In this document: positions 3,199 through 40,167 of the stretch, piece after piece
Layout: each line of letters starts with the position of its first letter
How positions within the stretch are numbered: position 1 is the stretch's first letter
Assembly (NCBI GenBank): GCA_029550925.1
Contig: JAKPGL010000108.1
Coordinates: forward strand, 1-40,175
DNA length: 40,175 nt
Source: Planctomycetota bacterium
GTDB taxonomy: Bacteria > Planctomycetota > Planctomycetia > Pirellulales > Thermoguttaceae
Reading direction: 5' to 3'
Made by a program: the position numbers and the translations under genes
The notes under the pieces: model-generated
The model's input: the letters and a program-made list of their open reading frames with translations, nothing else
The model's database searches: none
Told to the model about the DNA's origin: nothing

Positions 3199-3531
3199 TT
3201 ACTCGGATTCGATGTGGGTAACCAGATCGCCGGAATAACGAAGCCGCATCCGATATTTCTGCAAAATTCCTCTCCAGATAAAAAGTTCTTGGTTTTTGTC
3301 TCCTTCTCGGCTTGGGCTGCCTTGAATCAATTTATCCACATCCTTTTTGGCCAAAGGGGCTTGTTCGTCTTCCACTTGGGAGGCAATTTTTTGATAGGTG
3401 CTGCTCCACTGGCTACGGACCCGAAGTTCCCAGATGATCACCAGACTTGCTATAATCACAAACACAATCAGTACGATTCGATAGATCGGCATGACGGGCT
3501 TTTTCGCCCCCTGCTCCGACGCATTGTGCAT
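3199..3531 (-). CDS. Small single-span membrane protein, unknown function
   Basis: A 110-residue protein with one membrane segment at about 16-36 (IYRIVLIVFVIIASLVIIW). A short positively charged N-terminus precedes it and a hydrophilic, helix-forming C-terminal domain of about 70 residues follows. Charge distribution suggests the tail faces the periplasm. No known domain is recognised. It is transcribed toward the 460-residue secreted protein on the same strand and the two probably form an envelope operon. The open reading frame on the opposite strand (3214-3876) is a shadow. Confidence 0.75.
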   Translation of the reverse strand: MHNASEQGAKKPVMPIYRIVLIVFVIIASLVIIWELRVRSQWSSTYQKIASQVEDEQAPLAKKDVDKLIQGSPSREGDKNQELFIWRGILQKYRMRLRYSGDLVTHIESE

Positions 3532-19990: not shown

Positions 19991-21667
19991 TTAGCTATCC
20001 AGAATCTGGAGTGCCGCTTCGTTTTGGGCGTCGGCCACGAACGGGATGCCGGTTTCGGCGGCGGTTTCCCGGTTGGCAGCCATGAGATCGTCCCTCGCGA
20101 TTTCCCGGACAGAAAACTTCCGGGCGCCGGCGAGCAGTTGTTGCAGCCCGGCCGCCAGTTTGTCGGCCAAGGTCCACATGGCAATCGCCCCGAACGGGAT
20201 TTTCTGGATTTCTTCTTTGCCGAGCTTGGCTTCCAACTGATAGTAACCGGCGAAGATTTCTTCTGGCCGATCGCCCAGTTCCAAAACCGTTGGCGGCAGG
20301 CGTTCCCAGTTGCCGTGGATGGTATCGACCTTAGTCCATTCGCCTTCGACGACCGCCCCGCCATTTTGTTTTCGGAGCACGCCTTCGATATTGGAACCTA
20401 GGAAACCTGGGATCATCAAAGCCCGTCCCATGCAGACCATCTTTGCAAATGGAGCCCCTAAGGCCAGGGCTTTGAAGATATGGTCTTCCCGGGCCAGTCC
20501 GCCGGCAAAGGCCAGATCCACTACCGGCATACCCCGGTCGGCCAATCGCTTGGCATATTCATAGGCTTTGGTATGGAGCACCAGCGGCGGCACACCCCAG
20601 GTCTCCATCATGTTCCAGGGACTCATCCCGGTGCCGCCGCCAGCCCCGTCAATGGTCAACAGGTCCAGTTGGGCGTCCGTCGCATATCGGATGGCCATGG
20701 CCAAGGCTTCCATGCCATAGGCGCCGGTTTTCAAGGTGATCCGTTGATAGCCCAGCGAGCGGAGATGTTCGACCGCCTGCATCAATTGGTCTCGGACCGC
20801 TTCGGGTGAATCGAGATCGGTATATCCGAGCCGACTGTGTCGGGCAAACGAACGGATCACCCCTTGTTCCCAGGCTTCTTTTACGCCCGGCTCCAAGGGA
20901 TCCGGATCGACCACATAGCCCCGTTGGCGTAAAAACAGGGCGTAGTCATAGCTGGTTACCTGGATTTCGCCGCCGATGTCTTTGGCGCCTTGGCCCCATT
21001 TGAGTTCGATGCAGACCTTTTCGGGGGCGAAACGATCGATCAGATACTCGGCCACGCCGAACCGGGTGTCTTCGACGTTCATTTGGACTAAAATAGCGCC
21101 GTAGCCGTCGTAGTAGCGGAGGAAGGTTTCCACGCGGCGGTCCAGTTCTGGGGCTTTTTCGATTCGGCCGTTTTGGAGGACGGATTGGCGGTCGATGCCG
21201 ACGACGTTTTCGCCTACCACAATGGGAATGCCCACCAGGGCTGCGCCGATGGCAAAACTTTTCCAATATTTTTCCGCCACGAACGTAGAGCCGAGGGCGC
21301 CGGTCATGATGGGCATTCGGCAGCGGATTTTGTGGAGTGCGCCGAATTGGGTTTCCAAGCTGACATTGGGAAAGACACAATCGTCGGCGTTATTGGAGAG
21401 TCCGGGCGGTAGTCCCTTGGCGTCGTAAAGTCGGCCCTGGATCCGCAGGGCATGGTAGCCGACGCCTAGTTGGGTGATATTGGCGCTGCCGGCCGTAACC
21501 ATGCCGAAATCTCTGGGGTAGAGGAGGCGTCGGCCCACCAGGCTAGCCAGCCAGGTTTCGCATTTACCGGCGCAATCGGCCCGGCATAGGGTACACAGGC
21601 CGGATTCGGCGGGGTTGCCGCGGTTGGTGGTAGCAAGGACGTCGTTGGTTTTTCGCCATTGGATCAT
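19991..21667 (-). CDS. FMN-binding glutamate synthase-related protein
   Basis: 558 residues from the ATG at 21667 (AGGAG seven bases upstream). The N-terminus has a four-cysteine motif, C25-x2-C28-x3-C32-x3-C36, likely metal or Fe-S binding. The rest is the FMN-binding barrel of the glutamate synthase alpha subunit: LKWGQGAKDIGGEI, ITLKTGAYGMEAL, LLTIDGAGGGTGMSPW and the VVDLAFAGGLAREDHIFKALALGA phosphate-binding region. The CHLDTCP cluster of true GltB (3Fe-4S ligands) is absent; the sequence there is MVCMGRALMIPG. No amidotransferase domain is present. So it may make glutamate from ammonia or another donor, or do something else in nitrogen metabolism. It stands alone, divergent from an NrpR-type regulator with shared operator-like sites, which supports a nitrogen-linked role. 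Confidence 0.92.
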   Translation of the reverse strand: MIQWRKTNDVLATTNRGNPAESGLCTLCRADCAGKCETWLASLVGRRLLYPRDFGMVTAGSANITQLGVGYHALRIQGRLYDAKGLPPGLSNNADDCVFPNVSLETQFGALHKIRCRMPIMTGALGSTFVAEKYWKSFAIGAALVGIPIVVGENVVGIDRQSVLQNGRIEKAPELDRRVETFLRYYDGYGAILVQMNVEDTRFGVAEYLIDRFAPEKVCIELKWGQGAKDIGGEIQVTSYDYALFLRQRGYVVDPDPLEPGVKEAWEQGVIRSFARHSRLGYTDLDSPEAVRDQLMQAVEHLRSLGYQRITLKTGAYGMEALAMAIRYATDAQLDLLTIDGAGGGTGMSPWNMMETWGVPPLVLHTKAYEYAKRLADRGMPVVDLAFAGGLAREDHIFKALALGAPFAKMVCMGRALMIPGFLGSNIEGVLRKQNGGAVVEGEWTKVDTIHGNWERLPPTVLELGDRPEEIFAGYYQLEAKLGKEEIQKIPFGAIAMWTLADKLAAGLQQLLAGARKFSVREIARDDLMAANRETAAETGIPFVADAQNEAALQILDS

Positions 21668-21702
21668 TGGAGGACTCCTAAGAAAACAACCAAACCGATT
21701 TT

Positions 21703-21720
21703 TCGGCAAATTGTTGCCGA
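21703..21720. promoter_or_regulatory. Inverted repeat TCGGCAA-N4-TTGCCGA in the leader of the glutamate synthase-related gene
   Basis: A perfect 7-base inverted repeat with a 4-base spacer, 36 bases upstream of the start codon at 21667. It shares the half-site TCGGCA with sites at 21884, 21907 and 21937. It may be an operator or an RNA hairpin. Confidence 0.55.
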
Positions 21721-21765
21721 TGCTAGAGACGCTCGATAGATTCTAATCGAGATGATAAGAAAGAT

Positions 21766-21771
21766 ATTATA
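21766..21771 (-). promoter_or_regulatory. Possible -10 box for the glutamate synthase-related gene
   Basis: Perfect TATAAT on the minus strand, about 100 bases upstream of the start. A good -35 box is not evident at 16-18 bases spacing (CCCTTG at 17 bases), so this is tentative. Another A/T-rich box lies near 21876-21886 next to the GGAA-N6-TTCC site. Confidence 0.35.
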
Positions 21772-21852
21772 GTTTTTTAAAAGAAATTCAAGGGGAAATG
21801 ATAGAATTTCGAGGAAAGTAGCCGAAACAAATCGGAAAAATTAAAAATAAAA

Positions 21853-21872
21853 ATCGGAAATACTATTCCGAT
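21853..21872. promoter_or_regulatory. NrpR-type operator ATCGGAA-N6-TTCCGAT
   Basis: A perfect 7+7 palindrome whose core, GGAA-N6-TTCC (21856-21859 and 21866-21869), is the operator motif established for Methanococcus NrpR. It lies in the shared intergenic region between an NrpR-type gene and the glutamate synthase-related gene. Binding is inferred. Confidence 0.72.
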
Positions 21873-21900
21873 CGCTTATAATAATCGGCACTTTTTTCAG

Positions 21901-21929
21901 TTGTTTTGCCGATGAAAATAGGTTATAAT
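21901..21929 (+). promoter_or_regulatory. Probable promoter of the nrpR-like gene, covered by an inverted repeat
   Basis: TTGTTT (21901-21906) and a perfect TATAAT (21924-21929) are 17 bases apart. An imperfect inverted repeat, TGCCGATG (21907) with ATAGG against CCTAT and CATCGGCA (to 21943), spans the -10 box. This arrangement suggests autorepression. Transcription would start near 21936, giving a leader of about 65 bases to the ATG at 22002. Confidence 0.7.
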
Positions 21930-22001
21930 GCCTATCATCGGCAATTTTGCTCTTTCCTATGTCTGTCCACTGCCAATCCACTGGCCCAAAAGGATACCGA
22001 T

Positions 22002-23006
22002 ATGGAAAAAGTCGAACGGAACCGCCTGGCCATCCTGGAAGTCCTAGAAAAAAGCACCGCCCCGTTATCTTCCCCACGCATCGCGCAGTTACTCGCCCAC
22101 ACCGGCCTCACGCTCAGCCAGCGAGCCATCCGCTTGTACCTCCAACAACTGGAACAGGAAGGCCTGACCCAATCCTTCGGCAAGCGAGGGCATATGATTA
22201 CGGAGCAGGGACGCACCGAAATCCATGCCTCCCAAATTCCCCTGCGCATGGGTTATCTGTCGGCCCGCATCGACCAGTTGACTTATGCCATGACTTTCGA
22301 CCTAGCCACCCGCACCGGACAGGTCATCGTCAATACCTCGATCGTCCCCCCACGCATCTTGGCCGAGCACCTAGACAAAATCTGCATAGTTTTTGCCAAA
22401 GGCTATGGCATGGGCAATCGCGTCGGCCTGCTCGGCCCAGGCGAACAGATCGCCGGAATCGTCATCCCCCCCGATAAAGTCGGTTTTTGCACTGTCTGCT
22501 CCATCACGATCAACGGCGTCTTGCTGAAACACGGCATCCCCACCATCAGCCGATTCGGCGGACTCTTGCAACTCCGCAACGGCCAACCCTGGCGATTCGT
22601 CGAAGCCATCCACTACGACGGCACCACCATCGACCCGCTTGAGGTCTTCATCCACAGCGGTATGACGGATTACATGGGCGCTATTACCGACGGCAACGGA
22701 CTGATCGGCGCCGGTTTCCGCGAATTTCCCGAAAACGCCCGGGATAAAGTGCTTCATCTGAGCCAACGGTTCGCCGCCGTCGGCCTGGGCGGCCTGTGGG
22801 AAGTGGGGTTACCCAACCAACCTCTGCTTGGCTTTCCGGTCAGTCCTGGCCGATTCGGTGCGGTGGTCATCGGCGGGCTAAATCCGATCGCTATCCTCGA
22901 AGAACTGGGCTATCGCGTCTCTTCCCGCGCTATGGCCGGCCTGTTGGACTATTGCCGTTTGATGGTCGCCGACGAACTCCACGAAGCGATCAAAGCGTTT
23001 CTATAA
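22002..23006 (+). CDS. nrpR: NrpR-type nitrogen repressor (winged helix plus one NrpR/DUF128 domain)
   Basis: 334 residues from the ATG at 22002 (AAGGAT nine bases upstream). An upstream in-frame TTG at 21906 overlaps the promoter and is rejected. Residues about 1-72 form a winged helix (LAILEVLEKS through the IRLYLQQLEQEGL recognition region and RGHMITEQGR wing). Residues about 75-330 are one NrpR regulatory domain: MGYLSARIDQLTYAMTFDLATRTGQVIVN, FAKGYGMGNRVGLLGPGEQIAG, VCSITINGVLLKHGIPTISRFGG and LNPIAILEELGY. In methanogens NrpR represses nitrogen-assimilation genes and is relieved by 2-oxoglutarate. Archaeal proteins often have two regulatory domains; here there is one. The divergent gene is glutamate synthase-like, and GGAA-N6-TTCC lies between. 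The stop codon TAA is part of the target site of the family C element inserted directly behind it. Confidence 0.93.
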   Translation: MEKVERNRLAILEVLEKSTAPLSSPRIAQLLAHTGLTLSQRAIRLYLQQLEQEGLTQSFGKRGHMITEQGRTEIHASQIPLRMGYLSARIDQLTYAMTFDLATRTGQVIVNTSIVPPRILAEHLDKICIVFAKGYGMGNRVGLLGPGEQIAGIVIPPDKVGFCTVCSITINGVLLKHGIPTISRFGGLLQLRNGQPWRFVEAIHYDGTTIDPLEVFIHSGMTDYMGAITDGNGLIGAGFREFPENARDKVLHLSQRFAAVGLGGLWEVGLPNQPLLGFPVSPGRFGAVVIGGLNPIAILEELGYRVSSRAMAGLLDYCRLMVADELHEAIKAFL

Positions 23007-23132
23007 CTGGAGTTTTGCAAATTTGGGATTTCCACCGATCTTGTACACTACCGACCCTCAAAAATCACAGGATTTTTGAGGGACCTGTTCAGTGTACGAA
23101 CACCCGAACAAGCCCATTTTGCAAAACTCCAG
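23007..23132. repeat. Family C palindromic MITE-like element, copy 1
   Basis: 126 bases with terminal inverted repeats CTGGAGTTTTGCAAA. A central stem is formed by CCTCAAAAATC and GATTTTTGAGG. Direct repeats CTATAA flank it at 23001-23006 and 23133-23138, as expected for a target-site duplication. It differs from copy 2 at about five positions. It encodes nothing. Confidence 0.88.
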
Positions 23133-23178
23133 CTATAACAGAACCGGTTGATGGATATATCAATACAGTAATAGGATT

Positions 23179-24075
23179 ATGGACATCCATCTTTCCCAAA
23201 ACCTGGTCGAGTGCTCCTTTGTCCGTCATGTAGAGCACCATCCCCAGATCGACTCGACCAACAACCGAGCCCGCCGGCTTGCCCTCGGCCAGGAGCCGCT
23301 GCTAGGTCATGCGACCCCCTCTGTGGAAATCCTCCAAAAATCGTTGTCTTGTCTAATCTTGGCGGATCAGCAATCGGCCGGTCGAGGCCGGGGGGGAAAT
23401 CGCTGGTGGACCGGACCAGGCAGTTTGGCGATGAGTCTCCTGATGCCGCCGCTAGCGGATTGGCCTCGGCTTTTCCAACGCTCTCCCCGACAGAGTTCCC
23501 ATTCCTCCTGTGATCCCGCCGAAGAAGGGCCATTCACCTCCTTCCACGCCTCTAGGCCCGCTTTTCAGCCCGGCCTGATCGGACTGGCCGCCGCTTTGGC
23601 AGTCCTGCGCACGGTCCACCCCAGGCTTCCCGCAATCGAGCTTGGCCTCCATTGGCCGAACGATGTTTTCGCCGCCGGGAAAAAGCTGGCCGGGGTCCTG
23701 GTGGAAATTGTAAGTAACGGTCTGGTGGTTGTGGGCATCGGCGTCAATACCAACAACACGTGCCAAGAGGCCCCGGAAGAACTCCGCCCGCGGGCGGCCA
23801 CCCTCCGGGATTTGACCGGACAACCCTATCCCCATGAAGAATTTCTTCCAGAACTACTGGGCCGCTTGGAGCAAGTATTCCAATCCTTGGTTCGACGCCC
23901 CCAGCAGACGGCGTCGGAGGCCGACCAATGGTGCCTCCAAAAAGAACGTCCCTTAACGGTGCAAATTCCTGAGGGGATGGTTTATGGGATATGTCAAGGG
24001 ATCGGCCCCGAAGGAGAACTGCTTCTGAAAACCCCCGAGGGCGTCCGCCGTATTTTCTCTGGGAGTATCAGGTAG
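23179..24075 (+). CDS. birA: Biotin--[acetyl-CoA-carboxylase] ligase
   Basis: 298 residues of a class I (no DNA-binding domain) biotin protein ligase, which attaches biotin to carboxylase carrier proteins through biotinyl-AMP. Visible motifs: IDSTNNRAR at 24-32, the adenylate-binding loop GRGRGGNRW at 68-76, LHWPNDV at 157-163 and KKLAGVLVE at 168-176, which holds the catalytic Lys. VVGIGVNTNN follows. A small C-terminal SH3-like domain ends with ELLLKTPEGVRRIFSGSI. Two insertions (about 41-58 and 98-131) make it longer than typical class I enzymes. The ATG at 23179 has only a weak AGGA site. Its leader holds the family C element, which separates it from nrpR; the two may have been co-transcribed before insertion. 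Confidence 0.92.
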   Translation: MDIHLSQNLVECSFVRHVEHHPQIDSTNNRARRLALGQEPLLGHATPSVEILQKSLSCLILADQQSAGRGRGGNRWWTGPGSLAMSLLMPPLADWPRLFQRSPRQSSHSSCDPAEEGPFTSFHASRPAFQPGLIGLAAALAVLRTVHPRLPAIELGLHWPNDVFAAGKKLAGVLVEIVSNGLVVVGIGVNTNNTCQEAPEELRPRAATLRDLTGQPYPHEEFLPELLGRLEQVFQSLVRRPQQTASEADQWCLQKERPLTVQIPEGMVYGICQGIGPEGELLLKTPEGVRRIFSGSIR

Positions 24076-24103: not shown

Positions 24104-24348
24104 GTATCATTTGAGCCAGTTCGAGGAATATACCATTTCTGGATGAGCTAGAATCCAGCAGCGTCATTCCCGCGAAAGCGGGAATCCAGTTAAAAATAGA
24201 TGGCGGCTTTCAAGATTCCCACCGGGAGTAATTAGCAAGGGATAACCCCAAAGAAGCCTAGATTCCTGCTTGCGCAGGAATGACAATGTTTGCCATTCGG
24301 CTAGAATGCCAGGGACGGCTAGAATGTTACGGACGGCTAGAATGTTAC
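24104..24348. repeat. Family A nested inverted-repeat element, copy 4, with tandem right end
   Basis: Inner repeats CGTCATTCCCGCG (near 24155) and TGCGCAGGAATGACA (near 24270-24285) are recognisable. The interior is unlike copies 2 and 3. The right end is repeated: CGGCTAGAATGCC, CGGCTAGAATGTTAC and CGGCTAGAATGTTAC again between 24297 and 24348. The left end is degraded. It fills the space between the convergent birA and FtsK-like genes. Confidence 0.6.
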
Positions 24349-39723: not shown

Positions 39724-39856
39724 GGAGGCTTCCTACCTTGGCTATCCAAAGCCTTGCCCCTCTGGGGAAACTACCTCTTTCGGGGAAGATGCATTCCTGC
39801 CACCCCCTGAGAAAGCATCCCTTCCCCCCTGCCCTGGTGAGCACTCTAGTTAATAG
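39724..39856. other. Short intergenic region before the family C element
   Basis: Contains the presumed promoter of the CorC-like gene on the minus strand; no gene is seen. Confidence 0.3.
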
Positions 39857-39982
39857 CTGGAGTTTTGCAAATTTGGGATTTCCACCGATCTTGTACACTA
39901 CCGACCCTCAAAAATCACGGGATTTTTGAGGGTCCTGTTCAGTATACGAACACCTGAACAAGCCCATTTTGTAAAACTCCAG
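39857..39982. repeat. Family C palindromic MITE-like element, copy 2
   Basis: 126 bases, about 96 percent identical to copy 1 at 23007-23132 by eye. Terminal repeats CTGGAGTTTTGCAAA are nearly complete. The central stem is perfect here: GACCCTCAAAAATC with GATTTTTGAGGGTC. It is flanked by TTAATAG at 39850-39856 and 39983-39989, a 7-base direct repeat. It encodes nothing. Confidence 0.9.
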
Positions 39983-40167
39983 TTAATAGCTTATCATAAA
40001 CGTGATTTTTCTAAAACCTGCCTTCTTCAAGGGGCTTGCCGGGGGGGCATTTACACCCCAAATGGATTGGCCGTTCCACGCTCTCTCGCCTCAGGCTTTT
40101 CCAGTACAGGGGCTTGGAGTGTTTCCCTTGCTGTGGGATAAAGGAAAGAAGAAGGCTTTGGATTTTG

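Follow-up and report, generated by a model that had tools for sequence, protein, structure and literature searches.

The window analysed here, a stretch of 40,175 nucleotides from a planctomycete of the Thermoguttaceae (contig JAKPGL010000108.1), contains a homologue of the nitrogen regulator gene nrpR that stands back to back with a gene resembling part of glutamate synthase (hereafter gltB-like). A preliminary description of this DNA had seen the two as divergent genes on either side of a 334-base gap, and this arrangement is confirmed, with the ORFs at 22002-23006 (+) and 19991-21667 (-). The features of the locus are as follows.

19991-21667, minus strand: glutamate-synthase-like gene, 558 aa, matching part of the PF01645 profile and divergent from nrpR
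21668-22001, no strand: divergent intergenic control region, 334 bases, 37% GC against 56% for the window
21703-21720, no strand: candidate operator O1, TCGGCA-AATTGT-TGCCGA (perfect), 35 bases from the gltB-like start codon
21832-21837, plus strand: extra half-site TCGGAA, 22 bases before O2
21854-21871, no strand: candidate operator O2, TCGGAA-N6-TTCCGA, a variant copy and the palindrome of the preliminary description
21885-21890, plus strand: half-site TCGGCA, identical in three of three species
21901-21929, plus strand: probable nrpR promoter TTGTTT-17-TATAAT (TTGTTT at 21901-21906, TATAAT at 21924-21929)
21907-21912, minus strand: half-site TGCCGA between the -35-like and -10 boxes of nrpR, identical in three of three species
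21938-21943, plus strand: half-site TCGGCA just 3' of the -10 box, identical in three of three species
22002-23006, plus strand: nrpR homologue, 334 aa, with a winged helix (residues 10-74) and one NRD domain (84-320)

The regulator had been described as a winged helix joined to a single NrpR domain, and both parts were found when sought by profile. The N-terminal winged helix matches PF08461 (HTH_12; E 3.5e-15, 56.1 bits against a cut-off of 21.4), and the remainder matches PF01995 (NRD1_2) in single copy (E 4e-78, 262.4 bits against a Pfam cut-off of 25). This is the sole PF01995 match found in the draft genome (4,903,335 bases in 233 contigs). Thermoguttaceae MAGs provide the nearest named relatives of the protein, at 91-93% identity, and the only match in the PDB by sequence is the nitrogen repressor-like protein MJ0159 (3nek; phmmer E 2.3e-27). 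An AlphaFold2 model (pLDDT 92.2) superposes on 3nek_A with a Z-score of 28.6 and 1.9 A over 220 aligned residues, so the predicted structure has the NRD fold; residues 1-94 of the model match PadR, CggR and many unrelated winged helices. All 22 homologues match the NRD, and 21 of the 22 match HTH_12. A winged helix is a feature of archaeal NrpR too. The archaeal proteins have tandem NRDs and the protein here has one; the 3nek chain of MJ0159 is numbered 321-540, far along a longer protein. With the NRD, the winged helix and the predicted NRD fold all present, membership of the NrpR family is supported for this protein.

Immediately 3' of nrpR, the stop codon is overlapped by the first copy of a MITE-like element of 136 bases, which occurs twice in the window (23002-23137 and 39852-39987; 126 of 136 positions identical) and has 25-base terminal inverted repeats, 88% complementary, plus an internal inverted repeat. 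The 15-base sequence at its end is found again on another contig, as two inverted copies equally far apart (L051, about 3395-3520). The element separates nrpR from a biotin protein ligase-like ORF on the same strand (23179-24075), and the gap past that ORF (24160-24340) contains short repeats including a duplicated CGGCTAGAATG unit. No Rfam family matched anywhere in the window at gathering thresholds.

The divergent neighbour is harder to classify. Its protein matches Glu_synthase PF01645 with an E of 1.1e-16 over profile positions 189-309 of 369 only, and an N-terminal cysteine cluster (C25-x2-C-x3-C-x3-C36) is invariant in eight aligned homologues, one of which is a fragment. The structural model is of low confidence (pLDDT 59.6) and matches FMN-type and other TIM barrels, with glutamate synthase 6s6s at rank 44; a search by sequence for a solved relative gave none, the best E being 0.024. 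Since the same genome has a full Glu_synthase match elsewhere, in an open frame of 1,551 residues, the gltB-like gene is an extra one and its glutamate synthase activity is putative.

Within the gap, the preliminary description had singled out the palindrome ATCGGAA-ATACTA-TTCCGAT, which indeed lies at 21853-21872, and an inverted repeat of TGCCGAT over the promoter, which is found as TGCCGAT at 21907 and ATCGGCA at 21937. It had overlooked the best copy, O1 at 21703-21720, and its count of four further TCGGCA half-sites has to be lowered to three besides the promoter pair, giving five copies of TCGGCA/TGCCGA in all. The remaining half-sites are TCGGAA (21832 and 21854), TTCCGA (21866) and TACCGA (21995). 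When the gap was resampled 20,000 times under a first-order Markov model, at least five copies of TCGGCA/TGCCGA arose in 0 resamplings, at least two copies of TCGGHA-N6-TDCCGA in 0 and at least one in 3; at least two perfect 6-N6-6 palindromes of any sequence were seen in 307.

Alignment of the three species of the genus shows conserved islands that take in the half-sites and the -10 box. O1 is present in both sister species with one arm changed (TCGGCATGATATTGCCAA and TTGGCAAAATATTGCCGA), and O2 is asymmetric in both (TCGGTATCAGTATTCCGA and TCGGCAATAATATTCCGA); O2 was also called as a terminator-like hairpin on the minus strand, one of two terminator-like sites against 0.6 expected in shuffles. 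The 22-base step from the extra half-site to O2 is the same in both sister species, in one of which the half-site reads TCGGCA. As to the sigma70-like promoter proposed earlier for nrpR, the TATAAT box stands, being conserved in all three species including both sisters, but TTGTTT matches the sigma-70 -35 box at only three of six positions and TTGTTT-17-TATAAT was not among the calls of a promoter scan of the region. That scan reported a pair of weak, overlapping minus-strand promoters (21781-21752; 2 against 1.0 expected); O1 would then be situated downstream of the promoter and ahead of the gltB-like start.

We then compared the regions upstream of nrpR across the phylum. PF01995 is present in 8 of 60 genomes of a search among relatives (own genome counted) and in 23 of 392 genomes drawn from the phylum (own genome and G026 counted). 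The 31 nrpR loci compared comprise the window, two sister species, two further MAGs, five other Thermoguttaceae and the 21 remaining loci of the phylum draw; L019 and L020 were dropped as belonging to the same genomes as L011 and L010. All 1,024 five-base arms were scored as palindromes with spacers of 3-7 in the 350 bases upstream of nrpR. CGGCA-N-TGCCG came out on top, with 24 sites in 10,850 bases at 20 of the 31 loci (counts that are not independent, because the loci are related), against 4 CGGCA palindromes with the same spacers in the other 98,464 bases of these loci. The runners-up were the overlapping arm GGCAA, in 14 loci, and then words found in 3 loci. The spacing is sharply bounded: the sites divide into 5 with N4, 8 with N5 and 11 with N6, and none was found upstream of the 31 nrpR genes with spacers of 0-3 or 7-12.

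These sites are unevenly spread. An exact copy is present at 15 of 15 loci of family f31 against 5 of the 16 others (the window, L018, L121, L123 and L124), although CGGCA ranks first in both groups alike. The exact palindrome is absent within 350 bases of nrpR in 11 of 31 loci, including both sister species and Thermogutta terrifontis (G026), in which looser versions, for example ATCGGTAATTTTGCCGTT and TTTGGTAACATGATGCCGAT, are found near nrpR. The shorter form GGCA-N4-6-TGCC occurs at 27 of 31 loci (15 of 15 in f31 and 12 of 16 elsewhere) and is lacking at the other four, L014, L017, L120 and L125. The exact motif is thus weakened outside f31, where the shorter one is still found in 12 of 16 loci. 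By family, nrpR was found in seven planctomycete families and has exact palindromes beside it in five, the exceptions being the single f87 and f104 loci; this holds whether the partner gene is gltB-like, gdhA or neither. On these sequence comparisons, the operator signature is probably CGGCA-N4-6-TGCCG and differs from the archaeal one. The earlier proposal that GGAA-N6-TTCC is the operator is not supported, as O2 is not kept in the two sister species and CGGCA-N4-6-TGCCG is the enriched motif; the expectation that a palindrome would be conserved at orthologous pairs was borne out in the changed form only.

The same motif led away from the window to glutamate dehydrogenase. In the window's own genome, TCGGNA-N6-TNCCGA occurs at 18 places against 5 for a reversed control pattern. 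Two of these lie in the nrpR gap; by a mechanical ORF call, 14 of the other 16 are inside ORFs (one of them, at L037, is at the very start of its ORF and ambiguous) and two are intergenic. One intergenic site, TCGGCATTAAATTGCCGA, is located about 196 bases before the glutamate dehydrogenase gene gdhA, and the sister species G001 has TCGGCATTTTATTGCCGA before the same gene; no matching gdhA was found in G002, only a second type of GDH-family gene. The gdhA promoter also has TCGGCA-AAAT-TGCCGA (N4), at -67 in the own genome and -57 in G001. The other intergenic site, TCGGGACACCGATACCGA at L038, precedes an ORF that we take by eye to be rpsA-like and has mismatched arms; it was set aside as a probable chance occurrence.

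A related pattern, CGGCAAAANTGCCG, was found on both strands at 16 places in seven of eight genomes, against 4 for its reversed control. Twelve fall within ORFs by the mechanical call, one of them (L105) at an ORF start and therefore ambiguous. Of the four intergenic sites, three precede gdhA, in G000, G001 and G023, and the fourth is in G023, between glnA and a GOGAT-glutaminase-like gene. The latter name, like rpsA-like, is our reading of the sequence by eye, with no database match behind it. On that contig (G023:C149; L117, L075) the GOGAT-glutaminase-like gene points away from glnA, with CGGCA-type palindromes between the two; the nrpR of G023 adjoins neither a gltB-like gene nor gdhA.

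The gene divergent from nrpR in the 31 loci is gltB-like in 8, gdhA in 5 and a GDH-family stretch of 31% identity in 1. Neither gltB-like nor gdhA was found within the flank examined in the other 17, among them all 15 f31 loci. In G016:C54 and G008:C112 (L016 and L018), gdhA replaces the gltB-like gene as the divergent neighbour, while G026 and G030, both with the gltB-like pair, have no PF02812 match at all. The preliminary description had seen here a two-gene, self-regulating circuit. Autoregulation is probable, but two genes are too few, because gdhA has sites in this genome and is itself the partner of nrpR in five others.

If NrpR is the protein that uses the gdhA palindrome, this palindrome should be absent from relatives that have no nrpR. 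We therefore sought gdhA in 32 relatives without a PF01995 match. Sixteen loci at 60-77% identity were taken as orthologues, leaving out the gdhA fragment L233 and GDH-family hits of 26-38% identity; L212 was dropped as having no upstream sequence, and the control set consists of 15 loci from 15 different genomes. An exact CGGCA-N4-6-TGCCG precedes gdhA in five of eight nrpR-bearing genomes (7 sites in 2,800 bases), whereas the 350 bases before gdhA contain none in any of the 15 relatives without detected nrpR (0 in 5,250 bases), three of which are only 78-81% complete, so that nrpR may be missing from those assemblies. The association with nrpR has a Fisher p of 0.0017, which becomes 0.005 when the two sister species count as one. 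Two of the five positives, L121 and L122, have the site in the gap common to gdhA and a divergent nrpR, and the gdhA promoters of three of the eight nrpR-bearing genomes have no exact copy. The controls, too, have many single CGGCA half-sites (28 in 5,250 bases, compared with 34 in 2,800 for nrpR-bearing genomes); four control promoters have relaxed matches and one has an exact pair at a spacer of 11.

Whole amt and Gln-synt_C loci were also scanned for CGGCA palindromes with spacers of 4-6. No palindrome lies just before amt in any of 10 amt loci; L070 has an exact copy inside the ORF that precedes amt, and the one in L072 falls in a short ORF at a distance of over 1 kb. An exact copy is present in one of nine Gln-synt_C loci, L075 of G023 (L082 and L083 being weak hits, E about 1e-18), and the glnA of the own genome has one imperfect GGCA-N4-TGCC upstream. 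With exact copies at 0 of 10 amt promoters and 1 of 9 Gln-synt_C loci, we did not adopt a classic NrpR regulon at amt and glnA as our reading. Separately, G030:C18 has a near-copy, TCGGCAGTTGTTTGCCAA, about 920 bases before amt and outside any long ORF (L068:190-210). Across 21 other planctomycetes, CGGCAAN{2,4}TTGCCG has 73 sites against 35 for its reversed control. The 67 occurrences that were classified (64 loci) comprise 48 inside ORFs and 19 that are intergenic or ambiguous; these 19 include six nrpR starts, three sites that belong to a single local array of repeats and a contig end that looks like an nrpR leader, and the remainder are next to no clear nitrogen gene. The array, at G173:C414 (L172:1469-1523), consists of three 20-base tandem units of CGGCAATCCTTGCCG and resembles the operator.

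Our preferred explanation, which we consider probable, is a bacterial NrpR regulon for glutamate synthesis with CGGCA-N4-6-TGCCG operators, autoregulation, and repression relieved by 2-oxoglutarate. NrpR would bind these palindromes, probably as a dimer, and would control its own gene, the divergent gltB-like gene and gdhA, which lies at a distance; its targets would thus serve to make glutamate from 2-oxoglutarate. The sites in the gltB-like leader and around the -10 box of nrpR suggest that bound protein may sterically repress bacterial promoters. By analogy with archaeal NrpR, nitrogen shortage would cause 2-oxoglutarate to build up, which would loosen NrpR binding and turn the genes on. 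The domains, the predicted fold, the motif and its spacing rule, the association with nrpR and glutamate genes, and the positions are established directly; repression rather than activation, and 2-oxoglutarate as ligand, are carried over from the archaeal systems. That transfer receives some support from the NRD itself, where MJ0159 has the identical residue at 20 of 33 positions invariant among the bacterial proteins, compared with 64 of 203 over the whole alignment. A broader reading, on which we are evenly divided, is that planctomycete NrpR, from a repressor family mostly associated with methanogens, acts at sigma-70-type promoters with a new DNA specificity and an unusually elastic spacing of 4-6, and controls whichever glutamate-making enzyme a species uses. 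Under this reading fall the exchange of places between gdhA and the gltB-like gene as divergent partner of nrpR, which is observed, and the use of several spacings by one protein, which is suggested because N4 and N6 sites both precede gdhA in a genome with a single nrpR.

The regulon might exist as described and yet respond to another ligand, such as glutamate or glutamine, or work by activation, which we think rather unlikely. The choice of targets fits such a departure, since the sites detected are at gdhA and gltB-like genes, whereas the archaeal regulon covers nif, glnA and glnK-amtB, as listed in the available portion of PMC2723118, and several of them are located 50-300 bases ahead of a start codon, where an activator could act. 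The shared NRD invariants (20 of 33 against 64 of 203) speak against a change of ligand, however, and the two half-sites that flank the -10 box of nrpR favour repression at that promoter.

That the palindromes belong to a different regulator and nrpR is a mere neighbour seems improbable to us. NrpR binding is here a prediction from sequence, and 11 of 31 loci lack the exact palindrome upstream of nrpR, both of which would suit a different protein; such a protein would nevertheless have to explain why exact palindromes go with nrpR in five of seven families, whatever the partner gene, and are found at 0 of 15 gdhA promoters in relatives without detected nrpR. Very improbable, in our view, is that O2 functions as a true operator of the Methanococcus type, with some other role for the CGGCA sites. 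The perfect palindrome TCGGAA-N6-TTCCGA at 21854 does fit the GGAAN6TTCC consensus given in the available text of PMC2723118, but its symmetry is broken in both sister species, the palindrome enriched across loci is CGGCA and not GGAA, and the copies before gdhA are CGGCA and not CGGAA.

The regulator proposed here is related to, and differs from, those studied in archaea. It shares with M. maripaludis NrpR and M. jannaschii MJ0159 the NRD fold and inverted repeats before nitrogen genes, and differs from them in its bacterial host and TATAAT-type promoter. The operator consensus of M. maripaludis is GGAAN6TTCC (PMC2723118, 2009, available portion), whereas the sites here have CGGCA arms and spacers of 4-6. 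Likewise, the archaeal regulon set out in that portion of the paper comprises nif, glnA, glnK-amtB and molybdate transport, in contrast to gdhA and the gltB-like gene. Methanosarcina has a pair of nitrogen regulatory proteins likewise called NrpR, of which NrpRI binds DNA and NrpRII interacts with TBPs (PMC3960522, available portion); the genome analysed here has a single PF01995 match. The presence of NrpR in certain bacteria was already stated in 2009 (PMC2723118, available portion), and what would be new is a candidate bacterial operator and regulon. Among the open-licence matches listed, none was recognised by its title or the start of its abstract as describing either, and those joining NrpR with Planctomycetes were a methanogen genome, going by the part of that paper available, and accidental word matches.

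The preliminary description's central proposal, an NrpR-family regulator in a bacterium with a link to nitrogen assimilation and a palindromic motif, is supported, and the finding is real and somewhat larger than first described. Bacterial NrpR proteins gain a concrete candidate operator and regulon, and the 4-to-6 spacing rule is an unusual and directly testable property. Because Thermogutta terrifontis, a cultured species, has the nrpR/gltB-like pair, the regulon could be tested there. More broadly, our results suggest that a nitrogen repressor investigated in archaea acts at bacterial promoters with an altered DNA specificity, and they may provide a handle on nitrogen control in Planctomycetota.
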